From Nocardioides mangrovicus (lineage in GTDB: Bacteria; Actinomycetota; Actinomycetes; Propionibacteriales; Nocardioidaceae): a stretch of 64,000 nt of DNA. The notes under the pieces are model-generated. The model was not told where the DNA came from, did no database searches, and saw only the letters and a list, made by a program, of their open reading frames with translations. Both the position numbers and the translations under genes were made by a program. This document shows, piece after piece, positions 21,647-59,731 of the stretch (position 1 is the stretch's first letter; every line of letters starts with the position of its first letter). Where the stretch lies: positions 59,649 to 123,648 of the forward strand of contig NZ_RDBE01000010.1 of assembly GCF_003674065.1 (NCBI RefSeq), in the 5' to 3' direction.

Positions 21647-22765
21647 ATGATGCGCGACATGACCGAGGTCCACGAGGGTCTCGAAGGCGTCGTCGCCTTC
21701 CGGACCGAGATCGCCGAGCCCGACAAGGAAGGGTCGTCGCTGCGCTACCGCGGCGTCGACATCGAGGACCTGGTCGGCCGGGTTCCGTTCGAGAAGGTGT
21801 GGGGGCTGCTGGTCGACGGCAGCTACGAACCGGGGCTCCCGCCGGCGGAGCCGTACAACATCGCGATCCACACCGGCGACGTCCGCGCCGACGTACAGGC
21901 GTCGGTGGCGATGCTGGCGCCGATGCTCGGCATGGGCCAGACCTACGACATCACCGACGAGCAGGCCCGCACCGACCTCTCCCGCGTGGCGGTGATGGTG
22001 CTCTCCTACGCCGCCCAGTCCGCGCGCGGCCTCGGCAAGCACGTCATCACCCAGAGCGAGGTCGACCAGGGCGCGACGCTGGCCGAGAAGTTCCTGATCC
22101 GCTGGCGCGGCGAGGCCGATCCCAAGCACGCGCACGCGATCGACGCCTACTGGAGCTCCGCAGCCGAGCACGGCATGAACGCCTCGACGTTCACCGCGCG
22201 GGTGATCACCTCCACGGGTGCCGACGTCGCGGCCGCCTTCTCCGGCGCCATCGGCGCCATGTCGGGCCCGCTGCACGGCGGCGCGCCCTCGCGGGTACTC
22301 GGCATGATCGAGGAGGTCGAGAAGACCGGCGACGCCAGCGGCTACGTCAAGCAGCTCCTCGACAAGGGCGAGCGGCTGATGGGCTTCGGCCATCGGGTCT
22401 ACCGCGCCGAGGACCCCCGCGCTCGCGTCCTGCGCCGCACCGCCCGCGAGCTCGGGGCCCCGCGCTACGAGGTGGCCGAGGCGCTGGAGAAGGCCGCCCT
22501 GGCCGAGCTGCGCGAGCGGCGGCCCGACCGGGTGCTGGAGACCAACGTCGAGTTCTGGGCCGCCATCGTGCTCGACTTCGCCGAGGTGCCCGCGAACATG
22601 TTCACCGCCATGTTCACCTGCGCCCGCACCGGCGGCTGGTCGGCGCACATCCTCGAACAGAAGCGCACCGGCCGGCTCATCCGCCCCTCGGCGGTCTACG
22701 AGGGACCGGGCACCCGACCGGCCTCCGACATCGAGGGCTGGGACCCGAGCTGGGGCACGGCATGA
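21647..22765 (+). CDS. citA: Citrate synthase 2
   Basis: 372 residues. It has the short citrate synthase type of actinobacteria: GLEGVVAFRTEIAEPDKEG, LRYRGVDIEDLVG, catalytic His in SGPLHGGAPS, the GFGHRVYR block, and NVEFWAAIVLDFAEVP near the C-terminus. It condenses acetyl-CoA (or propionyl-CoA) with oxaloacetate. The start could be the ATG at 21659 (MTEVHEGLEGV). Oddly, its stop overlaps the ATG of the RiPP recognition gene (ATGA), so a housekeeping enzyme gene heads the RiPP operon. Confidence 0.93.
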   Translation: MMRDMTEVHEGLEGVVAFRTEIAEPDKEGSSLRYRGVDIEDLVGRVPFEKVWGLLVDGSYEPGLPPAEPYNIAIHTGDVRADVQASVAMLAPMLGMGQTYDITDEQARTDLSRVAVMVLSYAAQSARGLGKHVITQSEVDQGATLAEKFLIRWRGEADPKHAHAIDAYWSSAAEHGMNASTFTARVITSTGADVAAAFSGAIGAMSGPLHGGAPSRVLGMIEEVEKTGDASGYVKQLLDKGERLMGFGHRVYRAEDPRARVLRRTARELGAPRYEVAEALEKAALAELRERRPDRVLETNVEFWAAIVLDFAEVPANMFTAMFTCARTGGWSAHILEQKRTGRLIRPSAVYEGPGTRPASDIEGWDPSWGTA

Positions 22766-23022
22766 GCCAGATCAAGGCCCGCTCGGAGGACCTGTCCTGG
22801 CGCGAGGTCGACGAGGAGATCGTGATCCTCGACCTGGCCTCCTCGCAGTACTTCTCCCTCAACGGCACCGGCGCCGTGCTCTGGAAGGTGCTGGCCGACG
22901 GCGCCGACGAGGACGGCCTGGTCGCGGCCCTCACCTCCGCCTACGACGTGGACGAAGCGCAGGCGCGCGCCGACGTCGCCGCCTTCGTCGCCCACTGCCA
23001 GGAGCTCGGCGTCCTGGCATGA
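22762..23022 (+). CDS. PqqD-like RiPP recognition protein (lasso B1 type)
   Basis: 86 residues. The sequence WREVDEEIVILDLASSQYFSLNGTGAVLWKVLADG is the PqqD/RRE winged-helix pattern (three strands then helices). In lasso peptide systems the free-standing B1 protein binds the precursor leader through its conserved Tyr and Pro residues and delivers it to the B2 protease. It overlaps the citrate synthase stop by 4 bases and is followed 6 bases later by the exporter gene, so citA, B1 and exporter form one transcription unit. Confidence 0.9.
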   Translation: MSQIKARSEDLSWREVDEEIVILDLASSQYFSLNGTGAVLWKVLADGADEDGLVAALTSAYDVDEAQARADVAAFVAHCQELGVLA

Positions 23023-23028
23023 GCTGCC

Positions 23029-24785
<1,757 letters not shown>

Positions 24786-24798
<13 letters not shown>

Positions 24799-25907
24799 GT
24801 GCGCCGAGCGTCCTCGCGCTCGGCCGCGACCACCCAGCGCGCCAGCCCGGCGTCGTCCGGCACGGGGTCGCTCACCGGCAGGTCGATGCCTCGCAGCCGG
24901 TAGCGCACCCCCTCGGCCAGCATGTGCGCGACGGCGCCGGCCGTGGCCGGTCCGGTGTCACGAGTGGCCCGGTACCAGTTGCGCACCGAGTGGACGCTCG
25001 CCGACGGGGCCGACGGTGGCCGGCGGCGACCCAGCCGGTCGAGCAGCCGCACCCAGGCGGTGCGCGGGCCCATCGCGGCCGCCCACGGTCCGACGGCGGG
25101 ATCGAGCCAGCGAGACGTGGCCTCGAGCACCGCCCGTACGTGCGGGACCACGCCCCACTCCTGGGCGCGTCCACGCAGCTGGTCCGGCGCGAAGTCGGCC
25201 GCGCGGAGCACCTGCTGCACGTCGAGCAGCCAGCGCAGCTCCGAGCAGCCCGACAGGCAGGCGTGCAGCATCACGTGCAGGGCGAAGTCGAGCTCGTCGA
25301 GGGTGGCCACCGAGGCACCCTCGACCCGGACCAGTCGGCGACGCCCGAGGAGCACGTCGGCCGCGAGGTGCGTGCGGTCGCGCAGTGCGGCGTGGTTGAC
25401 CAGGCTCCAGTGCAGGTCGAGCACGGTGCCGTGGGGCAGCCGCATGCTCAGCTCGGCCGTGCGGTGGCGCACCGCGTAGTCCCAGTCCTCGGGCACCACG
25501 CTCGCCCCGGCCAACCCCAGCACGGCGACGGCCTCACCCACCCGCGTCGGGGAGACGAGCACGTCGAGGTCGGCGGCGTCGCGCACCTGCTTCTTCTCGA
25601 AGACGAGGCTGCGCAGCACCAGGCCCTTCAGCGCCGCCCACTCGATGTCCGCCCCGTCGAGCGCCGACCCCAGCCGCACCAGGTCGGCCACGGTGCGCAT
25701 GTCGCGAGCGGCGGCGCCACTGCGCAACCGCGTCAACGGTGGCGGCACCGGGTGACCCGCGGTCTGGACCGCGAAGGTCACTGGGGCCAGGACACCGGCC
25801 GCCACCGCGCGCTCGACCCAGGTGATCTGCGGCGGCGGCGTGGGACAGGGCAGGTCGCGGGCGAACGACCGGGTCGCGCCGTGCACGAAGGCGTCGGCGT
25901 CGTCCAC
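24786..25907 (-). CDS. Nucleotidyltransferase-family protein of the RiPP cluster
   Basis: 373 residues from a GTG at 25907. The central part, WAALKGLVLRSLVFEKKQVRDAADLDVLVSP, is the KG...DxD core of the uncharacterised NTP_transf_5 nucleotidyltransferases that recur in lasso peptide clusters carrying a kinase gene. HGTVLDLHWSLVNH and DELDFALHVMLHACLSGCSELRWLLDV are further family blocks. It could transfer a nucleotide to the peptide or use a phosphorylated peptide end; no reaction is proven in this window. It is transcribed against the exporter and away from B2, so it has its own promoter in the 25908-26024 gap. Confidence 0.8.
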
Positions 25908-26024: not shown

Positions 26025-26462
26025 GTGAAGCCCGACCACCCCGACTCCGCCGACCAGCGGCGGCACTACGCCGAGCTGGAGAGCCGTCCGGTGCGGCCCC
26101 GCCGCTCGCCGGTCGTGATGGCCGCGGCGGTCTGGACCTGGCTGGCCATCGCGATCACCCGGCGCCGGCTGCGACGAGTCGGCTTCGCCGCCGCGGTGCC
26201 GGCGCCACCGGCGCTGCTGCCCTGGAGCAGCCGGCGCGGCGTCTACGGCGTGCTCTCGCGGCTCTCCCCTACCTGCCTCGAGCGCTCCTACGTCCTCCAG
26301 CGGTGGTTGAGCGCCCACGGAGTGGACTTCGAGGTGGTGGTGGGCGTGCGCCGTGATGAGGCCGGTGCCATCGCCGCCCACGCCTGGATCGAGGAGCTCA
26401 CCACGGCCCGGGAGCGTGGCCGCTACACCGAGATCCACCGCGTCCCGGCGCCGGCCGCGTGA
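26025..26462 (+). CDS. Lasso-type B2 leader peptidase (transglutaminase-like)
   Basis: 145 residues from a GTG. The papain/transglutaminase-like core is clear: catalytic Cys in SPTCLERSYVLQRWL and catalytic His in AAHAWIE, the order seen in McjB-type proteins; an acidic third residue cannot be fixed. The N-terminus is basic with one hydrophobic stretch (PVVMAAAVWTWLAIAITRRR). It should cut the leader from the precursor with the help of the B1 protein encoded at 22762. Its stop overlaps the GTG of the synthetase gene (GTGA), coupling B2 to C. Confidence 0.88.
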   Translation: MKPDHPDSADQRRHYAELESRPVRPRRSPVVMAAAVWTWLAIAITRRRLRRVGFAAAVPAPPALLPWSSRRGVYGVLSRLSPTCLERSYVLQRWLSAHGVDFEVVVGVRRDEAGAIAAHAWIEELTTARERGRYTEIHRVPAPAA

Positions 26463-27652
26463 GCCGCGACCGACTCGCCGCGCTCGAGCGCGGCACCGGG
26501 CTGGTGTTCGGCCTCGACCCGGAGGTGACCGCGCCGCGGGCGCCGCGCGGCGCCACCGCTCGCGAGGCCCTCGAGTCGGTGGTGCTCGAGGCGCTGCAGC
26601 GGCCGCCCTGCCTGGTCAGCTTCTCCGGCGGCCGCGACTCGTCCTCCGTGCTGGCCGTGGCCGCTCACGTCGCCCGCCGCGAGGGACTGCCGCTGCCGGT
26701 GCCGACGACGTTGGTCTTCCCCGAGTGCGAGAGTGCCGAGGAGTCGGCGTGGCAGGAGCTGGTGGTGCGCCACCTCGCCCTGCCCGAGTGGAACCGCGTG
26801 GTGCTGCACGACGAGATCGACCTGGTCGGGCCCCTCGCCCGGCCGGTGCTGCGGACGCTGGGCCGTACCTGGCCCTTCAACGTCTACTTCCACGTGCCGA
26901 TCTTCGAGCTCGCCCGCGGCGGCACGGTGCTCTCCGGGGTCTTCGGCGACGAGACCACCTCCGCGGGCTGGGCGTGGCGTCACGAGAACCTCGTGGCCCA
27001 GCGGCTGCGGCCCGGTGGTCCTCGCGACCTGGCCCGCATCGTGCTGGCAGCGGCAGGGCCGAGAGCCGTGCGCGGACAGGTGCTGCGGCGGCGCGAGGTC
27101 CGTCGGGACGAGGTGCCCACCCGTCCGCCGTGGCTCACCGAGTACGCCTTCGACATCGTGCAGGACGCGCGACGCGACCAGGCCGAGCGCGAGAGCCTCT
27201 CGCTGCGGCGGTCGATGACGCAGACGCTGTGGCGGCTGCGTTCCCGCGTGCTCGGCCTGGAGACGCTGGACCGGCTGGCGGCCGAGTACGACGTCACGCA
27301 CTCCGCACCGTTCGCCGACGAACGCTTCGTCGGCGCCCTGCTGGCCGAGCGGTCGTGGCGCATGTTCGAGACGCGGACCGCGGCCGTGCGTCACCTCGTC
27401 GGCGATCTGCTGCCCGAGGAGATGTGCGCCCGCAGCTCCAAGGCCTACTTCGACTCCGCGTTCTTCCACCGCCACGCGCGGGCGTTCGCCCACGACTGGG
27501 ACGGCACCGGCCTGGACCCCGACTACGTCGTGGCCGAGGAGCTGCGCCGCACGTGGACCCACGACGACGAGCCCGACGCCCGCACGTTCGCGCTGCTCCA
27601 AGACGCGTGGCTGGCCGCCGACCGTCGCTCGCCGGCCTCAGACCGAGCCTGA
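26459..27652 (+). CDS. Asparagine-synthetase-like macrocyclase without glutaminase domain (lasso C type)
   Basis: 397 residues. The ATP pyrophosphatase domain begins early: SFSGGRDSSSVLAVAA (PP-loop SGGxDS) at about residue 60, then FGDETTSAGW and, near the end, SSKAYFDSAFFHRHARAF. Normal lasso C proteins and AsnB have an N-terminal glutaminase-like domain and about 500-600 residues; here fewer than 60 residues precede the PP-loop, so the domain is missing and no Cys2 exists. It should activate a carboxylate as an AMP ester, normally for an isopeptide ring. GTGA overlap with B2. The last 15 bases overlap the convergent kinase gene. Confidence 0.85.
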   Translation: MSRDRLAALERGTGLVFGLDPEVTAPRAPRGATAREALESVVLEALQRPPCLVSFSGGRDSSSVLAVAAHVARREGLPLPVPTTLVFPECESAEESAWQELVVRHLALPEWNRVVLHDEIDLVGPLARPVLRTLGRTWPFNVYFHVPIFELARGGTVLSGVFGDETTSAGWAWRHENLVAQRLRPGGPRDLARIVLAAAGPRAVRGQVLRRREVRRDEVPTRPPWLTEYAFDIVQDARRDQAERESLSLRRSMTQTLWRLRSRVLGLETLDRLAAEYDVTHSAPFADERFVGALLAERSWRMFETRTAAVRHLVGDLLPEEMCARSSKAYFDSAFFHRHARAFAHDWDGTGLDPDYVVAEELRRTWTHDDEPDARTFALLQDAWLAADRRSPASDRA

Positions 27653-28480
27653 GGGCAACTCCGCCAGCACCTCGGCCACCTCGGCCAGCGACTCCCACCG
27701 CCGGGGCCGCGACAGCCGGAGGAAGGGCAGCGCGGCGTAACCCATGAGCGCCACGGGGTCGGCCGGCTCGAGGAGCACCGCGCGGTTCTCCAGCAGCACC
27801 TTGATTCGCTCGCCGGCGGATAACGGCGCCAGACCGGTGCGCTCACCCCACTCCAGCAGCAGCCACCCCGCCAGCGGCACCCCGGTCACGACCGGCGTCA
27901 CGTCGTAGCGGTAGCGCGGGCGGGCGCCGAGCACACCCAGGTCACGACCCAGGCCGAGATGACGGGCAGCGTCGGGGCGCAGGTCGACGAACGCCGGGCC
28001 GGGGAGCACGAGGCCACCGTCCTCGACCACGACGTCGTCACTGAGCACCGGCAGCCCGCACGAGGCGAGGTAGCCCAGGGTGGTGCTCTTGCCCTGGTTC
28101 TTGTGGCCGATGACCGCCCAGGCACGACCGTCCACCACCACGGCGCCGGCGTGCATGGCGTCGCGTCCGTGCCACCAGTTGGTCACCGCGCAGGTGCCCG
28201 AGAGCAGCGGGTGCAAGAGCTCCTCGTCGGTGTAGTCGCGGCCGAGCCAGAGCCGCACCGTGGTCTCGCCGCGTCGCAGCTCGGCCCAGCTCTCGCCGTC
28301 GGAGAGGGGCAGCAGCGCGCGGTCGCGGTCGAGGACGAACCGAGGGTCGGGCAGCCGGTCGGCCGGGTCCGTGATGCGCTCGACCCGGATCTCGGGGTCG
28401 CCGTCGCGGGCCGGCGCCATCAGCCCCAGCGCTCCGGAGAGTCCCTCCAGGCGCAGCCCGTACACGCCGAAGCCGGTCAT
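27638..28480 (-). CDS. HPr-kinase-like protein of the RiPP cluster (PadeK type)
   Basis: 280 residues from the ATG at 28480 (GTG at 28486 possible). The P-loop is GHKNQGKSTTLGYLAS at about residue 150, preceded by HAGAVVV and followed by PVLSDDVVVED, the arrangement of HPr kinase-like proteins. In paeninodin-type lasso clusters such a kinase phosphorylates the C-terminal Ser of the precursor, and the precursor next door ends in Ser. It is divergent from the precursor gene, with an operator-like inverted repeat between them. Confidence 0.85.
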   Translation of the reverse strand: MTGFGVYGLRLEGLSGALGLMAPARDGDPEIRVERITDPADRLPDPRFVLDRDRALLPLSDGESWAELRRGETTVRLWLGRDYTDEELLHPLLSGTCAVTNWWHGRDAMHAGAVVVDGRAWAVIGHKNQGKSTTLGYLASCGLPVLSDDVVVEDGGLVLPGPAFVDLRPDAARHLGLGRDLGVLGARPRYRYDVTPVVTGVPLAGWLLLEWGERTGLAPLSAGERIKVLLENRAVLLEPADPVALMGYAALPFLRLSRPRRWESLAEVAEVLAELPSGSV

Positions 28481-28516
28481 CGCCACCGTCCGTGGGGCAT
28501 CTCGGGCGAGACCCTT

Positions 28517-28632: not shown

Positions 28633-28767
28633 ATGTCGCAGGACTACACCAGCCCCGAGATCACGCTCGTCGCTAGCGTTCACGAGCTGACGCTCGACGT
28701 CGACAAGTCCTACCACCCGAAGTCGGACGGCTACACCTTCGGCGGCAAGCCGATCAACGTCTCCTGA
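28633..28767 (+). CDS. RiPP precursor peptide with lasso-type leader
   Basis: 44 residues, too short for most gene finders. The leader has Tyr5, Pro8, Ile10 and Thr20; with Thr20 at position -2 these fall at -17, -14 and -12, exactly the lasso leader register (YTSPEITLVASVHELT). The core would then be residues 22-44, beginning DVDKSYHPKSDGYTF and ending GGKPINVS. Positions 7-9 of that core are His, Pro and Lys, so no standard lasso ring can form; the first later acid is Asp at position 11. The last residue is Ser, the target type of the neighbouring HPr-kinase-like protein. AGGA lies 10 bases upstream, and a strong hairpin follows the stop. Confidence 0.85.
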   Translation: MSQDYTSPEITLVASVHELTLDVDKSYHPKSDGYTFGGKPINVS

Positions 28768-28778
28768 TCCCAGGACGG

Positions 28779-28816
28779 CACGAGGGGCGGAGGGCTGGTG
28801 CCCTCCGCCCCTCGTG
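28779..28816. terminator. Strong bidirectional hairpin after the precursor gene
   Basis: CACGAGGGGCGGAGGG (28779-28794) and CCCTCCGCCCCTCGTG (28801-28816) are perfect 16-base arms around a 6-base loop. It starts 11 bases after the precursor stop and ends 28 bases before the stop of the convergent luxR-like gene, so it can end both transcripts. There is no T-run, as usual in high-GC actinobacteria. Confidence 0.88.
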
Positions 28817-28844: not shown

Positions 28845-29480
28845 TCACAACAGTCCCCGCTCGGCGGCGATGCTCACGGCGTGCGACTGGTTGCGTGCTC
28901 CGAGCTTGGCGTAGAGGCGCGAGCGGTGCGCCTCGATGGTCTTCTCCGCCACCCCCAGCCGGCTGGCCAGCGACCGGCTGGTCAGCCCGTCGGTGAGCCC
29001 GCGCAGCACGTCGTGCTCTCGCGGCGTGAGCACCACCTGGGGCGGCGCCGTCCGACGCTGGTCCTCGCGCCAGCGCCGCAGCACCAGCGCCGCCACGTCG
29101 GGGTGCAGCGCCGAGCTGCCGGCGGCGACCGCATCGACGGCGCTGGGCAGCTCACCAGCCAGGTCGTCGTCGAGCACCAGCAGCCCCGACGCCCCGGCCA
29201 GCAGCACGAGTGAGGCGGTGCGTGCCGCAGGGTCGTCGGTGATGGCCAGCACCCGCGAGCCGTGGGCGACCAGCCGAGGCACGACGTCCTCGAACCCGGC
29301 CTCGATCATGCTCGGGCCGGCCACCACCACCTCGGCCGCGTGGTCACCGGCGGCGTCGACCAGGTCGGCATCGGCGCCGATCCGCTCCGCCCCCACGCCG
29401 GCTCCGCGCAGCCAGGCGAGCAGCAGCCCGGCCAGCCCGTCGTCGCGCTCGGCGACGAGCACCCTCGGATGCTGCGTCAC
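28845..29480 (-). CDS. LuxR-type regulator with atypical receiver domain
   Basis: 211 residues from the GTG at 29480 (VTQHPRVLVAERD); the frame stays open upstream to 29597 through a repeat that encodes GTGAVGTGA-like residues, so a longer form is possible. Residues 5-125 are receiver-like, but the phospho-acceptor region reads VVVAGPSMIEAG with no Asp, so normal phosphorylation is unlikely. The C-terminal HTH is complete: LTPREHDVLRGLTDGLTSRSLASRLGVAEKTIEAHRSRLYAKLG. It converges on the RiPP precursor and is the obvious candidate pathway regulator. Confidence 0.85.
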   Translation of the reverse strand: MTQHPRVLVAERDDGLAGLLLAWLRGAGVGAERIGADADLVDAAGDHAAEVVVAGPSMIEAGFEDVVPRLVAHGSRVLAITDDPAARTASLVLLAGASGLLVLDDDLAGELPSAVDAVAAGSSALHPDVAALVLRRWREDQRRTAPPQVVLTPREHDVLRGLTDGLTSRSLASRLGVAEKTIEAHRSRLYAKLGARNQSHAVSIAAERGLL

Positions 29481-29538
29481 TGCGCCGGTCCCCACTGCGC
29501 CGGTCCCCGCTGCGCCAGTCCCCACTGGTCTGTCCCCA
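29479..29538. repeat. 15-base tandem repeat at the 5-prime end of the luxR-like gene
   Basis: The unit ACTGCGCCGGTCCCC is present at 29479-29493 and 29494-29508 exactly, at 29509-29523 with two changes and at 29524-29538 in decayed form. Each unit supplies an in-frame GTG-containing Val-Gly-Thr-Gly-Ala segment if translation starts upstream. Slippage here could change the regulator N-terminus or its spacing from the promoter without a frameshift. Confidence 0.7.
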
Positions 29539-29701
29539 ACTGCCCCGTCGTGCCGTGTCGTCCCGAGCGACGCCGGCGCTGCGCCGGCCGTGATCACCTT
29601 AAGGTGCGTCTCCCCGTGGCGGTGCTCCCGCCGAGAAGTAGGGCCTCAACAGCCAGCCAGCGCGAGGAGGCGGCCTACGGCACGCACGCTGGAGACCTCG
29701 C

Positions 29702-59645: not shown

Positions 59646-59731
59646 GATCGGAACCTAGTGGCACTCGACCCACCGCGCACCAGGCGTGAGCGTCGATCGT
59701 GAACGTCGGCGGCCCGAGCGGCCCGTCGGGG

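Follow-up and report, generated by a model that had tools for sequence, protein, structure and literature searches.

A lasso-type precursor with two putative extra residues ahead of its ring acid, and possibly an 11-residue ring, in a kinase-bearing RiPP cluster of Nocardioides mangrovicus

Lasso peptide precursors are recognised by two rules, a ring size of 7-9 residues and a threonine at leader position -2 (Thr-2), and the locus described here raises the question of what is made from a precursor on which these rules disagree. The window, that is, the whole stretch of 64,000 nucleotides analysed (contig NZ_RDBE01000010.1 of Nocardioides mangrovicus, positions 59,649 to 123,648), contains a forward-strand gene at 28633..28767 for a precursor peptide of 44 aa, whose translation is MSQDYTSPEITLVASVHELTLDVDKSYHPKSDGYTFGGKPINVS followed by a stop codon. 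With Thr20 set as -2, Tyr5, Pro8 and Ile10 fall at -17, -14 and -12; the leader then comprises residues 1-21, with YTSPEITLVASVHELTL as its positions -17 to -1, and the predicted core comprises residues 22-44, DVDKSYHPKSDGYTFGGKPINVS. The Thr20 (-2) and Leu21 (-1) codons, which mark the leader end by the Thr-2 rule, lie at 28690..28695 (+ strand). An earlier note on this DNA had pointed out this lasso leader register (Y-17, P-14, L/I-12, T-2), and it is exact by translation and free of gaps against the precursors of 35 distinct relatives. The same note held that the core lacks an acid for a standard ring, and this too is borne out: if the leader ends at Leu21, core positions 7-9 are His-Pro-Lys, and the only acids within core positions 1-14 lie at 1, 3 and 11, the first usable one being Asp11 (Asp32 of the precursor). 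If Thr-2 is kept, the ring has 11 residues; if a ring of 9 is kept, the N-terminus is Asp24 and the threonine stands at -4. Thus, the two rules cannot both hold here unless a further peptidase acts, and the product, if any, must break a rule used for recognising lasso peptides.

The lasso-type cluster around the precursor is real and complete. The order along the window is citrate synthase, B1, ABC exporter, nucleotidyltransferase, B2, C, kinase, precursor, hairpin and LuxR; an RRE protein (B1), a Cys protease (B2) and an Asn-synthetase-type cyclase (C), the last in a short form, are all found near the precursor. By homology, B1 (22762..23022, + strand, 86 aa) is an RRE/PqqD-like leader-binding protein, which scores above the cut-off against Pfam PqqD and slightly below it against the NCBIfam lasso PqqD models (best 1.6e-18, 66.7 bits, cut-off 70). 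Next come an ABC exporter of 589 aa (23029..24798, + strand, from NCBIfam and Pfam) and an NTP_transf_5 nucleotidyltransferase-like protein of 373 aa (24786..25907, - strand, Pfam 1.3e-32). The transglutaminase-like leader peptidase B2 (26025..26462, + strand, starting at either GTG 26025 or ATG 26118) has an NCBIfam match of 4.4e-10, above the cut-off, and its active-site Cys and His are present. Canonical lasso cyclases have about 600 aa and an N-terminal glutaminase-like domain. The cyclase C (26459..27652, + strand) has only 397 aa, with the Asn_synthase domain at residues 35-367 (Pfam 9.8e-15) and without the N-terminal glutaminase-like domain; of the 668 positions of the NCBIfam lasso cyclase model, the best stretch on it is 510-604 only. 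The HPr-kinase-like kinase (27638..28486, - strand, 282 aa) matches NCBIfam HprK_rel_A weakly (0.013) and carries the catalytic His, Lys and Asp-Asp: its motif His ... GHKNQGKS ... SDD, with a GxxxxGKS loop, fits the H/GxxxxGKS/DD pattern given in the excerpted text of PMC10368454. The His and Gly-Lys of the kinase are common to all 26 aligned rows, the Asp-Asp is present in the window sequence, and the Cys and His-Ala-Trp of B2 are likewise common to all aligned rows. A LuxR-type regulator (28845..29597, - strand, from NCBIfam and Pfam) neighbours the precursor on its other side, as a possible member of the cluster.

The spacing of the leader motif alone is not significant: its strict form matches once across the six frames of the window, and 200 mononucleotide shuffles give 1.07 matches on average. 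No NCBIfam or Pfam family matched the precursor at E 0.1. We therefore take the precursor as real from its context, namely the cluster, the GC3 (0.933 in the precursor, 0.932 in C and 0.922 in B2), the hairpin that follows it and the precursors of relatives. The hairpin is a perfect 17-bp inverted repeat with a 4-base loop and no T run (28779..28816), which begins 11 bases after the precursor stop; the 73-base stretch that includes it folds at -49.2 kcal/mol (z -4.7), and it is likely where the precursor transcript ends.

Within the genus, the cluster is an accessory island: its cyclase was found in one of the 24 genomes searched, and the distance from citrate synthase to the downstream SerC is 1.2-3.7 kb in six congeners versus 10.9 kb in the window; neither these six wide congener loci nor 23 shorter ones gave matches to B1, ABC, C or K. 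The G+C of the cluster region is nothing unusual. The ATG of B1 overlaps the stop of the conserved citrate synthase gene (21647-22765) in an ATGA at 22762-22765, and the first gene of the island may thus be read together with citrate synthase. Searches with the precursor found only itself among 294 genomes of the family at E 0.01, and itself plus 24 weak matches (E 0.029-0.91) among 293 genomes of the order at E 1; the 14 of these 24 that were inspected, by pattern and by eye, showed no short ORF with a lasso leader. One precursor match in plasmids and three in phages, at E about 6-7, were judged to be chance, and the cyclase query of plasmids and viral contigs found nothing. Neither the 294 family genomes nor the cyclase query of the 24 genus genomes gave a second shifted precursor; the shift is seen in one sequence only, with no closer homologue in the genomes searched.

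The cyclase query yielded 27 related loci in total: two from the genome_contigs set, 19 in 18 other genomes of a class sample of 393, three in two others of a phylum sample of 396, and three in three others of a family sample of 197. The genome sets of the genus, family, order, class and phylum searches and of the B2 survey described below overlap. The cyclases of these relatives are about 36-46% identical to that of the window, and lasso-type cyclases like it, some 400 aa long and lacking the N-terminal glutaminase-like domain, occur in 25 genomes or contigs besides the window's. Among the 23 wide related loci, a kinase is present in 22, B1 and B2 in 21 each and the nucleotidyltransferase in 10, a shared gene set that marks one recurring kind of cluster. 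All loci but one truncated by a contig end (L022) gave precursors, 38 in number, of which 35 are distinct after three exact duplicates were dropped. The finder asked for Y/F/W(H)..P. and a hydrophobic residue, then T (or I/V/A) downstream, which biases the set toward Thr-2 and makes no demand for Gly-8 or an acid; the precursors were then chosen by eye as adjoining the cyclase and having a leader, with ORFs in other frames left out. Since a good number of them are closely related (one family, f21), the 35 are not independent, and the effective number of the Asp9 set is 13.6. In L005-L009, L011-L014, L016, L017 and L019, two tandem precursors with unlike cores lie upstream of one short cyclase, versus the single precursor of the window.

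These relatives define what the window keeps and what it breaks. All 35 have a core acid at 7-9, with Asp9 in 32 and position 8 only in L002, L003 and L039, a pattern suggesting that the short cyclase does not commonly accept other ring sizes. All 35 also have Gly-8, reported to be conserved across phyla, while Thr-2 occurs in 34 and the terminal Ser in 32. The window precursor breaks both invariant features, the acid at 7-9 and Gly-8, for which it has Ala. It agrees with the family majority at Thr-2, Leu-1, Leu-3, Ser-7 and Val-6, and keeps the Y, P and I of the leader, the Ser-Asp and the terminal Ser. The earlier note had proposed aligning homologues to check the invariance of Asp32, Gly33 and the terminal Ser: the counterpart of Asp32 is held, at position 9 or 8, whereas Gly33 is not, and the terminal Ser is found in all but three. 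The Ala in place of Gly-8 and the pairing of a kinase with the terminal Ser go beyond what that note had seen. At L042/L039, a stop interrupts the cyclase frame and the short precursor has Ala at -2; this locus may thus itself be damaged, and is possibly a decaying copy.

We then asked where the window core best fits the family, scoring it at 11 offsets against a profile built on core positions 1-13 of the 32 relatives with Asp9. The score is best at +2 (-1.67 bits), followed by +4 (-4.25), and is -15.42 at the canonical start. With the Asp9 column removed, +2 (-5.52) leads +3 (-6.53) by 1 bit. In a control with close kin removed, 25 of the 32 relatives score best at 0 and seven elsewhere, two of them at +2. 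Even the best score of the window is negative, and its core is thus unlike those of its relatives. Shifted by +2, its Ser31-Asp32 (codons 28723..28728, + strand) falls on family positions 8-9, as the counterpart of the ring-closing Ser/x8-Asp9 of relatives, and counting back from Asp32, HPKSD pairs with HGKSD of L010, which places the extra residues on the N-terminal side. Accordingly, the +2 reading of the core is favoured rather than proved. Being part of a Ser-Asp motif held at core 8-9 in relatives, Asp32 is probably the ring acceptor acid, and two extra residues probably separate the cleavage site from the ring. One candidate placing for them is Asp22-Val23 (codons 28696..28701, + strand). 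A 5-base repeat of period 6 (TCGAC g TCGAC) overlaps these codons; within the window, 11.8% of stretches of 39 bases contain a period-6 run equally long, and we take the repeat as a weak hint of a recent two-codon duplication as the origin of the offset.

The enzymes give no clear sign of a change accompanying that of the precursor in leave-one-out comparisons with the aligned relatives. The window cyclase breaks two of 38 otherwise invariant columns (normal relatives L003, L047 and L125 break 3, 3 and 2), and both C and K stay within the range of normal relatives; in B1 one Leu is replaced by Cys, and B2 has a gap that L002 and L003 also show. The end branch of the window cyclase is the longest in the tree (1.36; the next are 1.15, 1.12 and 1.12), and it groups with L002/L003 so weakly (67/86) that its place is unsure. 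A structure model of the cyclase from three sequences was poor (mean pLDDT 50), and Foldseek matched only its ATP-pyrophosphatase core (LarE, NAD synthetase), so nothing on ring size was taken from structure. Searched by sequence against solved structures, C matched only NAD synthetase, weakly, and nothing like B2 or K was found.

Among the possible products, we tentatively put first, while holding it to be somewhat less than probable, a peptide with an 11-residue ring from Asp22 to Asp32, made from a precursor with two extra residues by this kinase-bearing lasso-type RiPP cluster. B1 would bind YTSPEI of the leader, the kinase would phosphorylate Ser44 (codon 28762..28764, + strand), and B2 would cut after Leu21, at the Thr-2/Leu-1 site. 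The short cyclase, whose Asn-synthetase-type lasso counterparts take the N-terminal amine as substrate, would activate Asp32, which corresponds to Asp9 of the relatives, and join it to the new N-terminus Asp22, leaving an 11-residue ring with a loop and tail of 12 residues, any threading of which would be a further predicted step. The gap-free leader, the +2 fit of the profile and the intact-looking enzymes speak for this reading. The family supports both the cut at 21/22 and the acid at 32, which together give 11 without an extra enzyme; the Thr-2/Leu-1 site and Ser-Asp are both kept, as if both were used, and this slightly inclines us to the ring of 11. More specifically, a lasso or lariat with this Asp22-Asp32 macrolactam, closed by the short cyclase and phosphorylated on its C-terminal Ser, is in our estimate rather unlikely.

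We know of no lasso ring above nine residues. Searches of the open-licence PMC literature likewise found neither a natural ring above nine nor a paper on this short-cyclase family. In the excerpts of the relevant papers, rings over nine are described as too slack to keep the tail in place (PMC12427821), the extension of the lariatin ring by one Gly failed (PMC4960549), and altering ring size by one generally lowered the yield (PMC13352647). Besides these precedents, the negative best profile score, the narrow lead of +2 once the Asp9 column is removed and the single sequence with the shift count against the 11-residue ring, as does the loss of Gly-8, which could mean relaxed selection.

Precedent also speaks against the next contender, a normal 9-residue ring, DKSYHPKSD, from Asp24. 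Here, B2 would cut two residues later, or a second peptidase would trim Asp-Val; we regard this as possible, if on the unlikely side. The earlier note had listed starts at Asp24, Lys25 and Ser26, for rings of 9, 8 and 7, and of these Asp24 is the one favoured, Lys25 and Ser26 less so, because the rings of relatives have 9 (32/35) or 8 (3/35) residues. Counting back nine from Asp32 reaches Asp24, as most relatives close on Asp9, and His5-x-Lys7-Ser8-Asp9 from this start matches L010; the repeat at the boundary would suit a two-codon insertion there, weak though it is given how common such runs are in the window. A ring of this size is also within every limit in the published excerpts. It nonetheless requires Asp22 at -2 or the second peptidase, and in the published work excerpted, lariatin was abolished by changing Thr-2 to Ala (PMC4960549) and the other residues at -2 were Ile or Val (PMC10368454). 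Further, a cut two residues later would leave Thr20 with no role as -2 and the conservation of Thr20-Leu21 without a reason, which counts for the 11-residue ring.

Alternatively, there may be no macrocycle, the precursor having drifted out of register or yielding a linear, perhaps phosphorylated, peptide on which the cyclase no longer acts. The loss of two features that are invariant in 35 relatives would fit this, as would an accessory island found in one of 24 congeners. Yet every cluster ORF is unbroken with its catalytic residues retained, and the precursor keeps its Y, P, I, Thr-2, Ser-Asp and terminal Ser, and a cluster-like GC3; we consider this outcome unlikely.

The phylum does contain precursors with lasso leaders but no acid at 7-9 beside B1, B2 and kinase genes, which lends the absence of a macrocycle some further support. 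A survey of 296 phylum genomes found B2 in 39, the window's own included, and among 37 stretches examined, by pattern and by eye, a lasso-leader precursor was recognised in 10. Half of these (L083, L085, L086, L088 and L108) lack an acid at 7-9; such leaders thus recur, in precursors that are more distant from and unlike that of the window. A cyclase-like gene is present at L083 and L108; at L085, L086 and L088, none was found by a profile that also missed those of L080, L081 and L084. In 10 long frames from L085 and L088, Pfam showed no Asn_synthase domain, so the peptide made at these two loci may be modified by the kinase with no lasso cyclase involved. L083, L085, L086 and L088 have long Gly/Pro-rich cores beside B1, B2, an HprK-like kinase and a nucleotidyltransferase. 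In L106, L108 and L164, the leader ends in GSIADHTF or GSIAQHTF and a GDK-like motif follows at varied distance (Asp at 7, 12 and 15); a cyclase-like gene accompanies L106 and L108, and L164 lies on a short stretch. On the reading with an 11-residue ring, L108 and L164, whose first plausible acid is at 12 or 15, may form one unrecognised group with the window precursor.

Another crosslink, such as the Lys-Asp side-chain link raised by the earlier note or a link between side chain and tail, is very improbable: Lys25 and Lys30 do lie near Asp32 and the excerpts of PMC12427821 record a second isopeptide bond in lariocidin B, but nothing in the cluster or its relatives points to such a link, no Lys is conserved at that place, and Asn-synthetase-type lasso cyclases are described as using the N-terminal amine (PMC12427821, PMC4960549).

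To return to the 11-residue ring, if it is true, both the definition of lasso peptides and the filters for mining them from genomes would change, as mining rules limited to acids at 7-9 would miss such a peptide; if the shifted cut is true, it is the cleavage rule that would change. The product is lasso-like up to cyclisation and we do not file it as a lasso peptide.

The closest known systems place the locus as follows. The kinases of the paeninodin and pseudomycoidin systems, as described in excerpts of PMC9266682 and PMC8498205, modify the C-terminal Ser of the precursor, and the same excerpts link the pseudomycoidin nucleotidyltransferase to a hexose on that phosphate. The window resembles these systems in its split B1/B2, cyclase, ABC exporter, kinase, nucleotidyltransferase and Ser-ending precursor, and differs in its cyclase of 397 aa without the N-terminal domain, its lack of an acid at 7-9 and its Ala at -8. 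The terminal Ser44 together with the intact kinase suggests C-terminal phosphorylation by analogy. The Bradymonas BsfA system (PMC10368454, in excerpt) is likewise a lasso-type cluster with a kinase, whose BsfK motif, H...GxxGxGKS...DD, is similar; it differs from the window in its Ile at -2 and its normal Gly1-Asp8 ring. As BsfK phosphorylates core Ser3 (PMC10368454), a kinase alone is no proof of C-terminal phosphorylation, and Ser44 stands as a predicted site. Metanodin, as far as the excerpts of PMC12670498 tell, is similar in that a precursor with an unusual N-terminal residue was overlooked by automatic tools, but its nine-residue ring from Asn1 keeps the size rule and Thr-2. The short-cyclase family itself (stop-to-stop frames of 384-479 aa, or part of a longer frame) has the same leader register, and the window departs from it in the acid at 7-9 and the Gly-8 that all 35 of its distinct precursors share.
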